A DNA stretch of 64,000 bases from Spiroplasma sabaudiense Ar-1343 (GTDB taxonomy: Bacteria; Bacillota_I; Bacilli_A; Mycoplasmatales; Mycoplasmataceae). Below the pieces are notes generated by a model. That model searched no databases, was not told the origin of the DNA, and saw nothing but the letters and a program-made list of their open reading frames with translations. The stretch lies in assembly GCF_000565215.1 (NCBI RefSeq), contig NZ_CP006934.1, positions 682,001 through 746,000 of the forward strand, given 5' to 3'. A program made the translations under genes and the position numbers. This document shows, piece by piece, positions 5,256-55,183 of this stretch (position 1 is its first letter; every line of letters starts with the position of its first letter).

Positions 5256-6194
5256 TTACTTTTTCTTAATTGCTCATAGTTTTGCGCTGTGAGCGCGACG
5301 GTTATTTTCTAATTCTAATTCCCTGGGTTTGAAAGGCTTTTTATTCACTAACTCAAATAGGCTTTTACTAGGTACATTAATTGGTAATTTTGCTAAAATT
5401 TTGTCTTCTTCAAATATTGTTACCCCTTTAAAAATTTCTTTTACAATTTTTTCTTCAAGGGATTGGAAGGTTATAACAACTAATGTTCCTCCACTTTTTA
5501 ACAATTTTAAAGAGCTTTTAAGAGCATCTTTTAAAACTTCAAGTTCGTTGTTTACACAGATTCTTAAAGCCTGAAAAATCTTCTTAGCTGGATGCTTTTT
5601 TTCCTTTAGAACTTTTTGAGGTAGACCGCTTTTAATTATTTCAACAAGTTCAAAAGTCGTTTGAATTTCTTTGATTGCTCTAGCCTCGATAATTCGATTT
5701 GCGATTTTGACGGCGTATGTTTCTTCACCAAAATCACGAAAAATTCTAATTAAATCACTTAAACTCCAATTGTTTACAATTGATTTGGCTGTTAATTGAT
5801 TTGATTTTTGATCCATCCTCATATCAAGTTCGCTGTCAAAACGATAACTAAAACCACGATCTTTATTATCAAATTGTGGTGAGGAAACTCCCAAATCAAA
5901 TAAAATACCATCCACTTCAAAAACGCCTTGAAAAGCAAGTAAACTTTCAAGATCCCTAAAATTGCCCTTTAAGATTTTAAAATTTTCACTTATTTTTTCA
6001 AGAATTGGTTGACTATAATTTATCGCGGTTTCATCTTGATCAATTGCAAATAGTTTCCCTGTTGTTAAACATTTTAAAATTTCTTTGCTGTGCCCTGCTC
6101 GCCCTAAAGTAGCATCAACATAGATACCACTTTTCTTAACATTTAAAAAATCAATTGCTTCATTTAATAATACCGAAACATGATGTTCTTGCAT
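5256..6194 (-). CDS. rsmH: 16S rRNA m4C1402 methyltransferase RsmH (312 aa)
   Basis: SAM-dependent methylase that modifies N4 of C1402 in the 16S rRNA decoding centre. Residues near 24-36 form the SAM motif VDATLGRAGHS. Other family segments are ILFDLGVSSPQFD, KHPAKKIFQALRI and VITFQSLEEKIVK. The C-terminus reads RRAHSAKL, then a UGA-encoded Trp, then AIKKK before TAA. The start overlaps the mraZ stop by one base (TAATG), implying translational coupling. Confidence 0.95.
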
Positions 6195-6622
6195 TATTTT
6201 GCTCCGCCTAGTTCATTTGCAACAGATTCTAAGTCAGTTAAGTGTTGATTGCTGTAGTCTCTATATTTTTCAATATCTCATATTTCAATTTTATCTCCAA
6301 TTCCCAAAATCAATACTGATTTTTTGATATCGCCCAGACTAAGAAGATTTGTTGGTATTTTGATTCGCCCTGCTGAATCAAAATCAATTTCTGATGAATT
6401 TGAAAATATTTGTCTTGCTAGCAATCTTGCATTTGAGTTAGTGGAACTGTGCTGAGAGATTTCTTTATATCAAATTTCAAACTCATTTTGACTTCGAACC
6501 TCTAAACAACCCTCAAAACCTTTTGAAATATAAATAGTATCACCTAATTGATTTCGTAATTTTGAAGGAATCGTTAGTCGAGATTTTTCATCTAAATTGT
6601 GCTCAAATGTACCTAATAACAC
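6194..6622 (-). CDS. mraZ: transcriptional regulator MraZ (142 aa)
   Basis: SpoVT/AbrB-type DNA-binding protein that controls the division cluster it heads. It has two copies of the MraZ half: LGTFEHNLDEKSRLTIPSKL near the N-terminus and IDFDSAGRIKIPTNLLSL in the second half. The start is a GTG at 6622, preceded by GGGGGA and giving M-L-L-G-T-F-E-H, the family's usual start position; no ATG fits. The stop overlaps rsmH. Two AAGTGGG-type boxes lie directly upstream, so autoregulation is likely. Confidence 0.93.
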
Positions 6623-46413: not shown

Positions 46414-48582
46414 ATGAAGAAACTAATGAGTATACTTGCATCAGCTGCACTAATTTCTGGAGCTGCGGGGACAGTGGTTGCTTGTACGGGAAAATACGAA
46501 AGAGAACAAAACGGTAACTCAATCTTGGCTTATTTAACAATAAATGGGAAAAAAGTTGCAATTGACTCAAGTCACGTTTTAATGGAAATGATTAATGAGT
46601 CAGGTCCAACAAACAGAAATAAATTTATTTTAGATATTTTAAAAATTCTAAATACCTCATTTTTTGTTAATGCTGAGGAGTTTCAAAATTCAGTTGAAGG
46701 GAAAACCGAGTATCAAAATGATAATATGGTCAAAGCTTTAAGTGATCGTTATGTAATTATTAAAGAAGAAGCTGAACGCCAAATCAGCGAAGAACGCAAA
46801 AAATATAAAGAAGATTATGGTAAAAAAGCTACTGCTAAATGATATGAGATGTTAGAAGCTAAATTCAAAGGAATTACTGACCGTGATGAATTAGATGCTA
46901 AATACTTCCAAAGCATTATAATTGGTGGAAGCAAAAATACTACATCGGAATTAATTGATATGCTTTTAAACAGTAATCAGCTAACTTATACTTTTAAAAA
47001 TCGTCTTGATATTATTAATCAAGAAATGTTGGATTTAAGAACTTATGTTGCCAAAGGTAAAACTGTTAGCGACTACTATAAAGATGAGTCAAAAGCTTCA
47101 AAAGTGTTGCTTCTATGAAACGCAAGCGGTCAAGCTGGTGACGCCTTTGCTCAAAAAATTGAAGATGTTTCAGAAAGCGCATTTACAAGCCACTTTGATT
47201 TAGAAGAGATTGATACCAAACTTATTTTAAATAATGCTCCCACTGATGCGAGTGCTTATGCAAGAAACACAACAGCTCGTGGAATGATTTCAAACTCACA
47301 ACGCTTTTTTATCGATAAATACTTTAATTATCAAAAACCCGTTGCTTTAAGTGAGATTACCTTCCCATTTGACACTAACCAAAAATTTGAAGATGGAATA
47401 ACTGCAGATGACTTTGGAGTTGCAACTGATAAAACTTCAGAATTAGGGAAAAATATTAATCAATTTTTAGAGGGTAAAACCAATGCAAGTATTGCATTTT
47501 GAGATGATGCCCTAGATGCCACTATTCCAAGTGGAACCGCTAAAAGATATGATACCCTATTAACTCTTGATGCTTCAACAGAGGTTTTCTCAAATACTTT
47601 AAGAACTGCTGTTTATGAGTATTTAAGCACTAATAAATCTCCTAGTGCAGCAACCAACGGAGCTGATTTAGTTGCTAAAATTAATCGTAATGCCGCAGAT
47701 AAGGTTTACACAGTTTTAGACGACGGAATTATCGCTTTTGCTGAAACTGATGGTTTACACTTCGTAAGAATCGAAGGTTACAATTTCTTAAAAGAAGCTA
47801 CTTGAAACTCAAAAGATGGTACTGGTGCTCCTGGAACCAACGATAAAGAATTAGCAGCTTTTGATGATTTTTGAAATAATAAAAATGATAGTGAGAGAAT
47901 CGCTGCAATGCGAGACACCACAAGTCAAACATATAAAAATTTAAATAGTAATATTAAAAACGAATACTTAAAATTTTTATTAAATAGTTCATTGACAAAA
48001 GGACTGACAGGATCCAAAACACAATTTGATTTAATGAGTCAAATAAAAAATTACGTTAAAATTGAAGAACCATCTGCGGGTGAAGGAACTTATGTTTGAT
48101 GGACTGCAATTTTGGAGTACTTTGAATACATGATGCAAGCACCTGAAACAAGTAACCCAGAAAAATATAATGAGGTCTTTTTAGGAAAATTCTTGACATT
48201 TGGTGATGCCAAAAGCGAGAATAGCGTTAATGATATTGCTTTAAAAATGCAAGATTGATTTATTAGTCATATTGGTTCGGCAAAATCAACTGCTGCAGGA
48301 ACTCCGCTAACAACTCATGCTGAAAACCAAAAAGCTTGAGAGAAAACCACTAAGTCATCAGTTGCTTCAGGAACTGGTTATCCAGAACACGTAGTTGGTG
48401 ATAATATTGATAATATTATTGCTTCAAAACGATTTGGCCTACCAGAAAATATGACAACTTCAGCTACTGAGGAGTCAAAAATTTTAACTGCTGGTCTTGG
48501 ATATGAGAAAATGCAAAATCAAGATTTTAACATTTATTACAATAATAATAGTTACGCCGTATTTTTGGGAGGTAAATGATAA
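46414..48582 (+). CDS. lipoprotein, possible P80-like (722 aa)
   Basis: Surface lipoprotein with a short basic signal (MKKLMSILASAAL) and a lipobox ending TVVAC, with Cys at about 24. The mature chain is hydrophilic, Asp/Lys/Asn-rich and has no clear membrane helix. Many TGA Trp codons are present. It is followed with a one-base TAATG overlap by a second lipoprotein, then by a HIT gene. Length near 80 kDa, a 60-kDa lipoprotein partner and HIT next door resemble the P80/P60/HinT set of Mycoplasma hominis; sequence homology was not tested. RBS GAAGGAG. Confidence 0.85.
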
Positions 48583-50204
48583 TGAGAAAATTATTAGGTC
48601 TTTTAGCATCGGTTTCTTTAACCGCCTCTACAGCCGCAACTGTAGTTGCCTGTGATACTAATAAACGTATCACAGAAGCTAAATTAAACGAAGAAACATT
48701 ACGTGCTTTATTGGCTTCTGTTTTTGGTGATGCAAGTGCAGCTTCAATTGATTTTGGTGATATTTTCAATAGTGGTGATATTTCTAAATCATTATTACAA
48801 ATTATTAACTTAATGATTGCCCAAGATAACTATCATCGAGCAAATAACAATTTATTAGAAGGCTTAGGACTAGAAAAAAACGAAGTTGAAGAGTCACTTG
48901 CCAATTTCAACTTATTAAATGATTCAATTGCCGCTGATAAACTTTATACTGATTATACTAAGAGTATTTCAGGAACCTCAAGTACTCAAGCTCTTGATTA
49001 CAGCATTCGTCGTCAAAGTTATTCTCTAAACTCCCAAGCAATCTCACTAATGGTTGATGGTGAAGCTAAAACTTTTGCCAGTGTTGGAGTCCAATTACCA
49101 GATGGTAAATTGTGACATATTCGAAATGAACTATCAACAAGTAATTACGAACAAAATATCCCAACCGCTAAACAGTTGAGTTCAGATGGATTTAAACTAG
49201 TTGATTTAAGTCAAGGAGCAAGTACTGTAATTGCTGGATATGATAACTTAAGCGGTCGTGACGCTTTAAAATACCGCTTTAATGACTGATTTGTTAACGA
49301 AATTCAAAAGAAAATTATTGAAAATTTACTATCGATGTCTCGTCAAATCCCAGAAACATTTAGAATCGGAAATAGTAGTGAATCATCAAAAAAAGCCGCC
49401 TATTTTAATCGATACTCTTCAGTTGGTAAGTATTCACAAACTTGAAATACTTCAACCACACCATGAACCTCAAATGTTAAAATGGTTTGAGAGTTATCTT
49501 TCAAAAATAATCAATTTAAAAAATTTAGTGATTTAATTGAGAGTTCTGCTGTAAAAGAATTAATTGATGTGAACTCTGGAATCTTAAAAGCAGACAAGTC
49601 AATTAAGGATTTGATCGCCGCCTTTTCAACTTTAGAAAATGTTACAGAAGATGGGGATGACCCTTATTTACACCAATCAGGTTTCAAAGGATTTATTAGT
49701 TTTAAAGACGGAGAAATTTATGGAACAAATAACTTAGATGCTGAATTTAAATATAAAACAGCCCTTCTAGGAGCCAATGAGCCTGGAATGCTATCTGAAA
49801 ACGGTCACCTTTATTTCCAAGGGGCCAAGAGTGATGAAATTTCGCTAGTATTTGTTTTACCAGTTTATTTAATTGAACTATTAAAAGATTATGAAATTAA
49901 AACAAACGCTAACGATGAAGAAGGTGCCAAAGTTAATTTGGGTCCAAGTGCTACAAACGCTAACCAATATCAAGATATTTGAAACCAAGAACAAAACATT
50001 AAAAAACATAGTAAAGATATTAATGAGTTATCTCGAGAAGAGAAAAACAATATGATTAATCAATTTCAATACATTGTTTCTCAAAATGCTGATGTTCTAG
50101 CTGAATCAAAAACAGCCCTATATTCACTTTACTTAGATGCTGATGACATCTTATACTCAAGTTTATGAGATGAAATTAGTAAATACATTAAAGATGAAGA
50201 ATAG
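48582..50204 (+). CDS. lipoprotein, possible P60-like (540 aa)
   Basis: Second lipoprotein of the pair. The signal is MRKLLGLLASVSLTASTAAT, followed by VVAC, so Cys at about 24 is the lipid site. The mature chain contains GEAKTFASVGVQLPDGKLW and a C-terminal YLDADDILYSSLW. The ATG at 48582 is nine bases after GGGAGG; the ATG at 48576 is only three bases away. It shares one base with the previous stop. Its N-terminus is similar to the first lipoprotein only in the signal region. Confidence 0.85.
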
Positions 50205-50774: not shown

Positions 50775-51761
50775 CTATTTCTTTTGTGGGTCAAAGTGAT
50801 TTAAAAACATTTTACCCTCTTCACTTGAAATTCGAGCACTTCAGTCATCTTGACCAACTTTATTTAACTCTTCATTAATCTTAAAAATTCGCGCATCTAG
50901 GTTATCAAATGTTGAAAGGATAACAGCCTCTAATAATACTGGTTCGATTGGAGAACCATATTCATTTTTTCCATGACTTGCAATAATCATATGTTGCAAC
51001 TTCGTGACATCAGAATTTTGAGTTCCATCAGAATTATATAATAATTCTAATTCTTTTGCGGTATTGTACACTATTGTATTCCCGATTGAAATATGTCCTA
51101 GAAGTTTACCCTCTAAACTATAATCAGTTCCGCTAATATCTGTTAGTTCAATAATTTTACCAATATCGTGTAGAATTGATCCACAAATAACTAAGTCTCA
51201 GTCGATGTTAGCGTAGCCATAATTACCTCTAATTGATTTTGCATTTCGCACTAAAGTGTAACTATGTCAAAATAATCCCCCAACAACATTGTGATGAATT
51301 GTCATCGCTGCTGGAAAAGATAAAAAATCTTCTTTCAACTCCAATAAAATGGCTTTAGTAATTTTTTTATAAATTGGATTTTTAACTTCTTCAAGAATCA
51401 TTAAGAAGTTGTTTCAATTTTCTTCAATATTGATAGGAGCTGACATATTAAAATCTTGCAAATTAATTCCTGCAGCCTCACACTCATCTGGTGCATAGAT
51501 TTTGTATTGATTAATTTTCAACTGAATTTGATTGCGATATAAATTTGCAATTGCTTCAATCCTTACAATTTGATTTGCTTTAAAGGCCTCTTTATCTTCG
51601 ATTGTTGCATTTCATAATCGTGCCTCAACTCTTCCGGTTTTATCAACTAAATGAATAATTAAATAATTCATCCCATTACTTCCCGTAGAAAGAACTATCT
51701 TTTCAACCCTTGCGGTAACTACAATATTTTTATCAGAACTTTTAATTTCAACTATTTTCAA
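50775..51761 (-). CDS. OB-fold/HD-domain 3'-5' exoribonuclease, YhaM-like (328 aa)
   Basis: N-terminal OB nucleic-acid-binding domain (LIIHLVDKTGRVEARLW), then an HD phosphohydrolase domain with His motifs HHNVVGG, H-D in ILHDIGKI, H in MIIASHG, and a conserved Asp in STFDNLDAR. The architecture matches YhaM of Firmicutes. It ends at a TGA-containing C-terminus reading WSARISSEEGKM and stops at TAG 50775. No ATG exists at the N-terminus; TTG 51761 with GGGGAA upstream is the best start. Confidence 0.85.
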
Positions 51762-51778: not shown

Positions 51779-53719
51779 CTAAATTAATAATCCAGGATTG
51801 ATAATGTATTTGCTAAAGTCTTGTAAAAAGTTATTTGCTTGAATTAAGTTAACTAACTCGCAATTAAAAGTCATCGAGACAACAACCATATTTTTAATAA
51901 AGACTGTGTTATTCTCTGCAACTGGTTTTTGGTAAATGTGACCAACACCAAAATTAAAAAACTCTCCAGGTCTTAATTTTTTTTGACCTCTAGTTAATTT
52001 CAGATAGCCGAAGTCGGTTATTGAGATTTGAGATTCTGGGGCAATTGGAAAATCTCCTGAGAATTGGAATTCTTGCCTTTGGTCAGTTAGCCGTCTTGTT
52101 AATTCGTTTATATTTATTTCAGCATCAAGGAAAATTGCTGCCTCGACCATTTCTTTAACGCTAAATAGCGAATACTGGATTGCATTTTGTTCCTCCAAGC
52201 CTGGAATAATTTTATGGTTTAACAACTTCTGACGTGCCTTTAAAATTGCCTTTATGAAAAACGCCATCAAACTAAGTTCTAAACCTTGTTCTAAAAATGC
52301 TCGCGACATTAAATCATACAAGTTAGTTAGTGATGTTAAATCAATCTCTACATCGATTGTCATGCTTGGGGTTACTTGCTCATTTACCTTTTTATCCAAA
52401 GATTTAGTGTTTGTGGATTTTTTAAGAAATTGCGAATTTAACCCCTTTGAATTATCAAGGTTAGCTGTTTTAGTTAAAAAATTAAACTCTTTAATTGTTT
52501 TTTCCCAACTATCTCCTTTATTTTTAATAAACAGCGACTCATCAATTACTTCACTTTGAGTTTCTTTCAAATCACTTGCAAGGGATTTTTTTATTTCCTC
52601 AATTTCAGTTTTAAAGTTGAAATTAGGGTTTTGAGAGGATTCTTTCAAATCATCTTTGTCTTGACTAGATAGATGTAAAAAATCCTTTTCTGGCTCTTTT
52701 TTGGCCACTTTATCCTGATTTATTTCTGATAATTGAGGTTTCTCATCTTCATCACTGTTTTGATATTGATTAAAAGTCATTGTATCATCATTTAAATGAT
52801 CGCTAAAATCCGTCGTTTTTTGAGGTATTTCTTTAATATTATTTGAGTTAAGGTCCTCAACCATTGGCTTTTCACTAAAGTCAACTTCGAACTGAGATAG
52901 TTCTTTTGAAGTTTCTACAGTTGGTTTAACATCAAAATCATCTAGATCTTCGAATGCTAAAATTTGCTCAAAAAGGTCATCATTATTTGTTTGGGTTGAT
53001 GATTTATCTAAATCAGATAGTAAACTTGAAGCTGGAAGATTAAAGCCATCTTCATTATGTAAAAGTGCTGTTGCCAGAGTGGAATCATCAGCCATTTGTG
53101 ATTCAAGGTTGGCTTGTTTTTTTAACTCTTGGGTTAAACCATCAAAGCCACTTGTTAAGTCATCAAAGCGAACGCGATTCATTTCCAAAGTATTTGTATC
53201 GTTTTCTTCTTCTCATTCTTGACTGATTTCTGAAAGCTGTTCTTCTAAATTAATATCTTTGAGTTGTGTTGTTGAAATATTTATTGGTCGAGTTTTCATA
53301 TTTACTGTCTCAACCAATATTGAACTTTTTTCTTCTCCATCCAAAACTTCCATTGTCATCGTTTGTGCGTTTTCATAAATTTCTTGATCTCTTTTATCAT
53401 ATTTTGGAGCATTATAGCGGGGTTTTTCTGTGATTACATCTTTTAAGGTTCTACCAACACTACTTGTTCCGTGAATATTTTTAACTTCTTGCTCCGAAAA
53501 AATATCAAAAATAATATCTCCGTTACTAACAATGAGAGACTCTAAGATATTTATATTTTTAATAACACCATTGACATGGGCTATAATATCAAAAGTTTCT
53601 AATTGAGTAGAAATCTTCGCAATAACTTGGCCTTTTTCAACAATATCACCATCAAAAACATAAACTTTTTCAACTATTCCCTTGAGATTACTATTTGTTT
53701 TAAATTTAATTCTATTCAT
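51779..53719 (-). CDS. E2-like protein with degenerate lipoyl and acyltransferase domains (646 aa)
   Basis: Residues 1-75 resemble a lipoyl/biotinyl fold (VFDGDIVEKGQVIAKI, then NGVIKNINI and SNGDIIF), but the lipoyl-Lys turn (DKA) is replaced by QLETFDI. A 350-residue acidic, Ser/Asp-rich, probably disordered linker follows. The last 200 residues align with the E2 acyltransferase core (TPSMTIDVEIDL, LSLMAFFIKAILKA, ISITDFGYLKL, FGVGHIYQKPV). The active site FDHRxxDG is replaced by FNCELVNL (618-625). Under the standard code it splits into two proteins at a TGA (53213), but both are in one frame. No E1 or E3 genes are near. It may be structural; see findings. Confidence 0.72.
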
Positions 53720-53887: not shown

Positions 53888-55183
53888 TTATTTTAATAAA
53901 TAAGCTTCCATTGATGCCAAAGCCCTATCACACAAAGCCTGATTTTTTAACTTTCGATCAGAAAATTGCTGTTCCATCGGAGGTAAAATTGCTAAATTAG
54001 CTTTCATTGGTTTGAGTTTTTTATGTTTTGAATTCGTCACATAATTGGTAAGTGCCCCAATAACTGTTTCTTGAGGTAACGGCTGGAATTTTTGTTTTGT
54101 TAAAAAGGCAACCATTCCCAAGGCAGCAACCATTCCAGAGGCAACCGATTCTAAATAACCCTCAACCCCTGTTATTTGACCAGCAAAGAACAAACTTTTC
54201 TTTCGCATAACTTGTAGACTCGGATTTAAAATTTTTGGAGAATTAATATAATTATTTTTATGCAAAACTCCATAACGAATTATTTGCGCCTCTTTCAACC
54301 CAGGCAATAGTTTAATAATTCTTTCCTGCTCTGGTCATTTTAGATTTGTTTGAAAGCCAACGATATTATATAAAGAGTCAATTGCATCATCTTGGCGCAA
54401 TTGCACAACCGCAAAAGGAGGTTTTTCTTGACCGGGTGCAAGTAGTTTATTTGCACTTAAAGGACCATTTAATAAATTTCGTTTCCCTTTTTTTGCCAAA
54501 ATTTCAACTGGCTGACATCCGTTAAAAAATATTTCTTTTTCAAATTCTGGAAGCGCAACAACTTCTGCTTTGATTAATTCGTCATGCCAAGCATTAAATT
54601 TTTCTTCATCCAAAGGAATACATATGTAGTTACCATTACCTTGATTATGACGAGAGGCTCAAAAAACCTCGTCGAAATTAATTGATTCTTTTGTAACAAT
54701 TGGTGCAGAAGCATCTAAAAAAAATAATTTATTTTTACCAGTAATTTTTGAAATCGCTTCTTGTAATTTTAAGGTTGTTAGCGGACCTGAAGCAATAATA
54801 GTCGGATTTTCATCAATTTCACAAAAATCTAAATCAATAACTTCAATATTTTCATGTTTTGAAATAATGTCAGTGAGTTTTTGAGAAAAATTATTTCTAT
54901 CAACTGCTAGTGCGTCATCGCTTGGAATTTGGGTTTCATACGCAACATTCAAAACTACAGAGTTTAATAGTTTTAATTCTGCCTTTAAAATCCCTACTGC
55001 ATTTTTTAGAGAATTACTTCGAAAAGTATTACTGCATACCAATTCGCCAAATAAATCTGTTTTTTGAATTTCGTTTTTTTGGATTTTTTTAACTTCATAG
55101 AGTCTAACCTTGAAACCGCGTTCTGCTAATTGGAAAGCAGCTTCACAACCAGCCAAACCGGCTCCAACAACATTAACTTGCAA
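53888..55183 (-). CDS. trmFO: FADH2/folate-dependent tRNA U54 methyltransferase (431 aa)
   Basis: Flavoprotein that makes ribothymidine at tRNA position 54 with methylene-THF. It has GAGLAGCEA (Rossmann motif, 7-15), [12 protein letters not shown] with the catalytic-region Cys, and [21 protein letters not shown] near the C-terminus. The length is typical. TGA Trp at several positions. The start is two bases after the cutC stop. The folate cofactor links it with the cyclo-ligase in the window. Confidence 0.95.

Follow-up and report, generated by a model that had tools for sequence, protein, structure and literature searches.

A catalytically dead E2 paralogue of helical spiroplasmas as a candidate scaffold outside the pyruvate dehydrogenase complex

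To our knowledge, the known dead paralogues of the E2 acyltransferases, i.e., the E3BP proteins, all act inside the pyruvate dehydrogenase (PDH) complex. In E2 structures, the trimers contact each other in a knob-into-hole manner, with a short C-terminal helix serving as the knob (PMC8421416), and the pocket of this contact in a fungal E2 is formed in part by helix 2 (PMC7494870). In the fungal E3BP, the trimer-trimer surface has been turned into a new oligomer interface (PMC10156792). In spiroplasmas, the fibril protein is descended from a nucleosidase (PMC9710875), showing that the path to an internal structure is open to a metabolic enzyme. That the coccoid clade has lost fib and mreB has already been published (PMC6117150). 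A search of the accessible literature for a pseudo-E2 in Spiroplasma found no paper. Judging from the sequence comparisons described below, helical spiroplasmas contain two ancient families of dead E2 paralogues, referred to here as PE2-A and PE2-B, and the protein under study is a member of the first of them.

The analyzed window, a stretch of 64,000 nucleotides from the genome of Spiroplasma sabaudiense Ar-1343 (positions 682001-746000), carries the PE2-A gene on its minus strand at positions 51779..53719, including the stop codon. The frame is open across 646 codons under genetic code 4, with a single TGA read as Trp, and its product matches the Pfam families PF00198 (2-oxoacid_dh; 47.0 bits, curated cut-off of 23) and PF00364 (Biotin_lipoyl; 28.2 bits, curated cut-off of 22.1). 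The AlphaFold2 monomer model, calculated with a 34-row alignment, consists of two confidently predicted domains, an all-beta lipoyl-like domain at residues 1-76 (53492..53719, minus strand; pLDDT of ∼90) and an E2 (CAT-like) core at residues 450-646 (51782..52372, minus strand; pLDDT of ∼92). They are joined by a mostly disordered acidic linker, residues 84-446 (52382..53470, minus strand), which has a net charge of -35, pLDDT values mostly below 50, and predicted helices at residues 158-211 and 369-418. The core superposes on those of E2 proteins, for example, the Escherichia coli E2p (7b9k_A; VIA Z score of 25.0, 2.0 Å over 197 residues), and Foldseek matched it to E2 cores with an E value of ∼1e-16. 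The first-pass annotation of this DNA, made from the sequence, had described a lipoyl-like N-terminal fold, a long acidic linker, and an E2-like C-terminal domain, and had proposed predicting the structures of both end domains; the models bear out all three parts.

The next gene downstream (50775..51761, minus strand), separated from PE2-A by a 17-bp gap, codes for a YhaM-like protein that combines an OB fold (PF01336) with an HD domain (PF01966). The upstream neighbor (53888..55183, minus strand) is a trmFO-like gene, so named from its sequence, and by synteny it is part of a conserved metK-cutC-trmFO block. Farther along, the region from 46414 to 50204 encodes two large lipoproteins and a HIT family protein, in an order shared by the pseudo-E2 genomes and several coccoid relatives.

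The functional sites were read from a joint alignment of 34 PE2-A members and 15 genuine E2s. In the window protein, T38-Q39-L40 (53600..53608, minus strand) stand in place of the lipoyl-domain T-D-K, with Leu40 at the position of the lipoylated Lys. This Lys is present in 15 of 15 genuine E2s versus none of the 34 PE2-A sequences, and Gln39 is found in 33 of the latter. The equivalent of the DHRxxDG motif is N619-CELVN-L625 (51845..51865, minus strand), in which Cys620 replaces the catalytic His and Asn624 the catalytic Asp. The His, again retained in all 15 genuine E2s, is missing from every PE2-A member, in which the same column is occupied by Glu, Gln, Asn, Ser, Cys, Lys, Thr, or Ala. A reading of this change as His to Asn was dropped, as the joint alignment with the genuine E2s sets the Asn on the preceding Asp and Cys, Glu, or Gln on the His. 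Both replacements had been spotted from the single sequence, and they now extend to the whole family: since the lipoyl Lys and the catalytic His are both missing across all 34 aligned members, a sequencing error is excluded as the cause, and together with the low dN/dS values given below, this rules out a pseudogene as well. The E2 subunit-binding domain (PSBD, PF02817) gave no match in the window protein up to an E value of 1 and was absent from every pseudo-E2 scanned, PE2-A and PE2-B alike, whereas the genuine E2s from two of these genomes contain it with scores of 48 and 57 bits. By the features tested, the window protein is neither an E2 enzyme nor an E3BP. A non-catalytic role for PE2-A is well supported by the family-wide loss of both sites, purifying selection, and retention in genomes that lack PDH.

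What the family has retained lies elsewhere in the protein. Near-invariant positions of the core among the 34 members (D460, L464, L467, M471, L482, L484, F487, K490, A491, A628, N641, P642, G643, and L645) map in the model to the first two helices and their surroundings, the last long helix (Ala628), and the C-terminal NPGLLI; none of them is at the active site. Lys13, Gly14, Val27, Leu464, Ala491, and Pro642 are invariant. The NPGLLI segment (51782..51799, minus strand), in which Pro is found in 34 of 34 members and Asn, Gly, and Leu645 in 33 each, can be assigned by its sequence position as the equivalent of the E2 trimer-trimer knob (PMC8421416). These near-invariant helices and C terminus, set against the freely varying active-site columns, suggest that PE2-A has retained an assembly surface and lost catalysis and would still assemble.

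PE2-A is a fast-evolving yet constrained protein. Its sequence identity across genera is ∼20%, and the dN/dS ratios of its core in well-separated pairs are 0.014 (G030/G013), 0.049 (G001/G002), 0.12 (G009/G064), and 0.10 (G009/G065). Among the PDH-less genomes, full-length PE2-A shows dN/dS of 0.43 to 0.91 at dS of 0.03 to 0.10, compared to 0.10 to 0.26 (with 1.09 in the shortest pair) for yhaM and 0.20 to 0.30 for pgm. As PE2-A thus exceeds its neighboring genes in most of the same pairs, its constraint may be weaker where PDH has been lost. Overall, both pseudo-E2s, PE2-A and PE2-B, are under purifying selection.

The second E2-like gene of the same genome, PE2-B, lies outside the window at G000:C1:810125-813052 (L052:6123-9053) and codes for a protein of 976 amino acids. 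It resembles PE2-A in having a lipoyl-like domain without a conserved Lys (just 3 of the 18 members carry one there) and a dead E2 core, in lacking the PSBD, and in occurring in much the same genera. It differs from PE2-A in forming a separate clade, in the far better conserved core (206 bits in Pfam), in the presence of a long helix of ∼110 residues predicted in the middle of the protein (residues 490-598), and in being found also in the second Spiroplasma family. The catalytic His is replaced by Gln in all 18 aligned members, so that PE2-B reads DQR where E2 has DHR. PE2-B also contains Met/Gln-rich stretches. In the tree of core domains, PE2-A (support of 100/99), PE2-B (100/98), and the genuine E2s (93/95) form three separate groups, the order of which is unsure because of long branches. 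The suggested comparison with relatives and with the PDH E2 that this genome encodes has yielded 34 aligned PE2-A sequences, a distinct genuine E2, and three separate groups. An EAGR box in a small protein encoded beside PE2-B was not supported. In genera g8 and g7, the gene for a protein of ∼520 to 650 amino acids, apparently J-domain-like and with a membrane segment, is a direct or close neighbor of PE2-B (L091, L097, L099, L100, and L101).

PE2-B is found in 40 of 40 genomes of the genera g1, g6, g7, g8, g9, and g12, at full length in nearly all of them. The second Spiroplasma family (f9) adds three genomes with PE2-B, one of them with a broken or partial copy. PE2-B is absent from all 18 coccoid members of the family and, at an E value of 1e-60, from the rest of the 320 genomes of the order, except for one borderline match (6e-61) in f7 that resembles an ordinary E2. 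A profile search of contigs with PE2-B returned five named loci. PE2-A occurs in the same six genera, being intact in nearly all genomes examined; its g6 members are very divergent and were assigned by the N-terminal domain and the position before yhaM. It was looked for and not found in f9. Genus g11 is intermediate, with MreB present, PE2-A absent, and PE2-B shortened and devoid of the lipoyl-like domain; in G066, MreB is present and PE2-A is broken. The coccoid genomes retain the block of metK, cutC, trmFO, yhaM, hit, and lipoprotein genes, but the place of PE2-A is either taken by a different gene or empty, which points to a loss of PE2-A there. At three such loci, the ORFs between trmFO and yhaM (L172:4187-4837, L174:4535-5452, and L175:3236-4153) read like uracil-DNA glycosylase or mannose-6-phosphate isomerase.

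The relation of PE2-A to PDH bears directly on the possibility that it is an accessory PDH subunit, a bacterial counterpart of E3BP (protein X) that assembles jointly with the genuine E2 and modifies the complex. The core is dead, as in E3BP, and in several g8 genomes (e.g., G009, G017, G023, G035, G064 [Spiroplasma poulsonii], G065, and G068), the PE2-A orthologue precedes lplA and the PDH genes (pdhA, pdhB, E2, and E3) by a few genes. The first-pass statement that E1 and E3 genes are not nearby thus holds for the window genome, in which a genuine PDH gene set (L051) is encoded more than 400 kb away (E1-alpha at G000:C1:275908-276771), but not for these g8 genomes. The main point in favor of a PDH subunit is the possibly weaker constraint on PE2-A in the PDH-less genomes, one of which (G066) has the broken copy. 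However, in addition to the distance between the genes in the window genome, PE2-A has neither the PSBD nor the lipoyl Lys, and its distribution does not match that of PDH. Four genomes, G032, G063 (Spiroplasma phoeniceum PmM2021), G066, and G067, lack E1-alpha, G062 (S. phoeniceum P40) has it in truncated form, and only fragments of E2 and E1-beta remain in G067; all five of these genomes encode PE2-B and all except G066 encode an intact PE2-A, although they are partly close relatives and thus represent few independent PDH losses. Conversely, 16 coccoid genomes of g2, g3, g5, and g10 have E1-alpha but no pseudo-E2. Taken together, these data make an accessory PDH subunit improbable. Among these g8 genomes with lost or broken PDH genes, parts of the neighborhood remain (e.g., L122 and L170). 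In G010, the genuine PDH E2 seems to be split into a 261-amino-acid core ORF (L054:5378-6163) followed by a 107-amino-acid lipoyl-domain ORF (6180-6503), the reverse of the usual order.

The gene order suggests another possible partner. The yhaM gene directly follows PE2-A at nearly all loci, including those in g8 where the wider neighborhood is different, and an acidic, disordered linker would suit a role of PE2-A in scaffolding YhaM, which is an RNA-processing or HD-domain enzyme, by analogy to the non-catalytic partner-holding tails of RNA degradosomes. However, yhaM is present in 60 of 60 genomes of the family, with or without PE2-A, the metK-trmFO-yhaM-hit block persists after the loss of PE2-A, and in G069 and G074, PE2-A and yhaM do not lie side by side. 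The adjacency may therefore be inherited gene order; a strict functional pairing of PE2-A and yhaM is weakened by these data, and a YhaM scaffold is unlikely. It is also quite doubtful that the pseudo-E2s have kept some other activity, whether as sensors that bind CoA, acyl-CoA, or another small ligand in a remodeled channel or as enzymes that use a different catalytic group. The mostly preserved core of PE2-B and its uniform DQR, a specific rather than random substitution, are in line with such an activity, but the catalytic-His column of PE2-A varies freely and its near-invariant positions are away from the active site. Finally, rapid divergence and the one broken copy might be taken as signs of a functionless, decaying duplicate. 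Family-wide, this is refuted by the long-range purifying selection on the core, along with the invariant residues and the intact genes in almost every genome examined across six genera, which leaves decay very hard to credit.

The pseudo-E2s appear to be retained along with the multi-copy MreB set and not with PDH. The 40 pseudo-E2 genomes contain 5 to 9 MreB-family matches each, usually including one of the DnaK type; the coccoid genomes contain 1 to 3 weak ones, which are DnaK-type or divergent and sometimes represent broken MreB-like genes. Describing the coccoid relatives as devoid of MreB would be too strong, as several of them hold one or two divergent MreB-like genes and others have none or broken ones. 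Such genes are found at G003:C1:546190-547143, G005:C3:78190-80312, G016:C1:3699-4652, and G031:C1:2933-3424, some with internal stops. In f9, MreB and PE2-B occur together in G055 and in G044, the Spiroplasma endosymbiont of Nebria riversi (in which MreB is partly broken), and both are missing in G050. These are raw genome counts that rest on two separable losses and one partial case, with g11 and G066 as exceptions, so that the pseudo-E2s are possibly linked to helical cell architecture through a correlation across few events. Neither PE2-A nor PE2-B could be recognized in the list of 16 proteins from the Triton-insoluble internal structure of Spiroplasma eriocheiris, Table 1 of that study covering resolved gel bands only (PMC5289999). 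When PF01048 was used to look for the fibril gene, only short, nucleosidase-size ORFs were returned.

As the constant features of PE2-A are the E2 fold and the assembly knob, the best supported reading, with a probability of about 0.55, is that PE2-A is an E2 core repurposed as an oligomeric scaffold independent of PDH. The first-pass proposal of a scaffold rather than a working E2 is thereby upheld with respect to the lack of catalysis and partly supported with respect to the scaffold. The ancient family, the second pseudo-E2, the missing PSBD, and the retention that tracks the MreB set and not PDH had not been seen at that stage. PE2-A would then be an ancient paralogue of E2, no longer catalytic and acting outside the PDH complex, with a core that probably still builds an E2-type trimer or a larger particle and with acidic arms, each tipped by a lipoyl-like domain, that might hold partners by binding instead of acyl transfer. 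Being dead as enzymes yet kept in species without PDH, the pseudo-E2s are probably structural parts, and the retention of two of them by such bacteria suggests that the E2 particle itself is the useful part.

More tentatively, PE2-A and PE2-B might serve the cell architecture of the helical, MreB-rich spiroplasmas, a role that we regard as possible rather than probable. The same caution applies to the full scenario, in which an E2 was duplicated in the spiroplasma ancestry, stripped of catalysis, and became two dedicated structural scaffolds of the wall-less helical cell, in parallel to the fibril protein. The shape and swimming of spiroplasmas rest on incompletely known internal proteins, for which PE2-A and PE2-B are two lineage-wide candidates. 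If these genes carry the labels “dihydrolipoamide acetyltransferase” or “subunit E2,” such annotations would mislead metabolic models.

Among the known systems, the E2 acyltransferases of the PF00198 family, such as the E. coli E2p and the PDH E2 encoded alongside PE2-A in its genome, share with PE2-A the core fold, the N-terminal lipoyl-type domain, the flexible linker, and the hydrophobic C-terminal knob after a conserved Pro. PE2-A differs from them in the absence of the lipoyl Lys, the catalytic His and Asp, and the PSBD, as well as in the location of its gene away from PDH in the window genome and its persistence in genomes without PDH. The other close counterpart, E3BP or protein X (PDHX) of mammals and fungi, is likewise an E2 paralogue whose core, of E2 origin, is catalytically dead. 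However, E3BP is a eukaryotic protein that resides within the PDH complex and carries an E3-specific PSBD, whereas PE2-A has no PSBD and is retained in bacteria that have no PDH.
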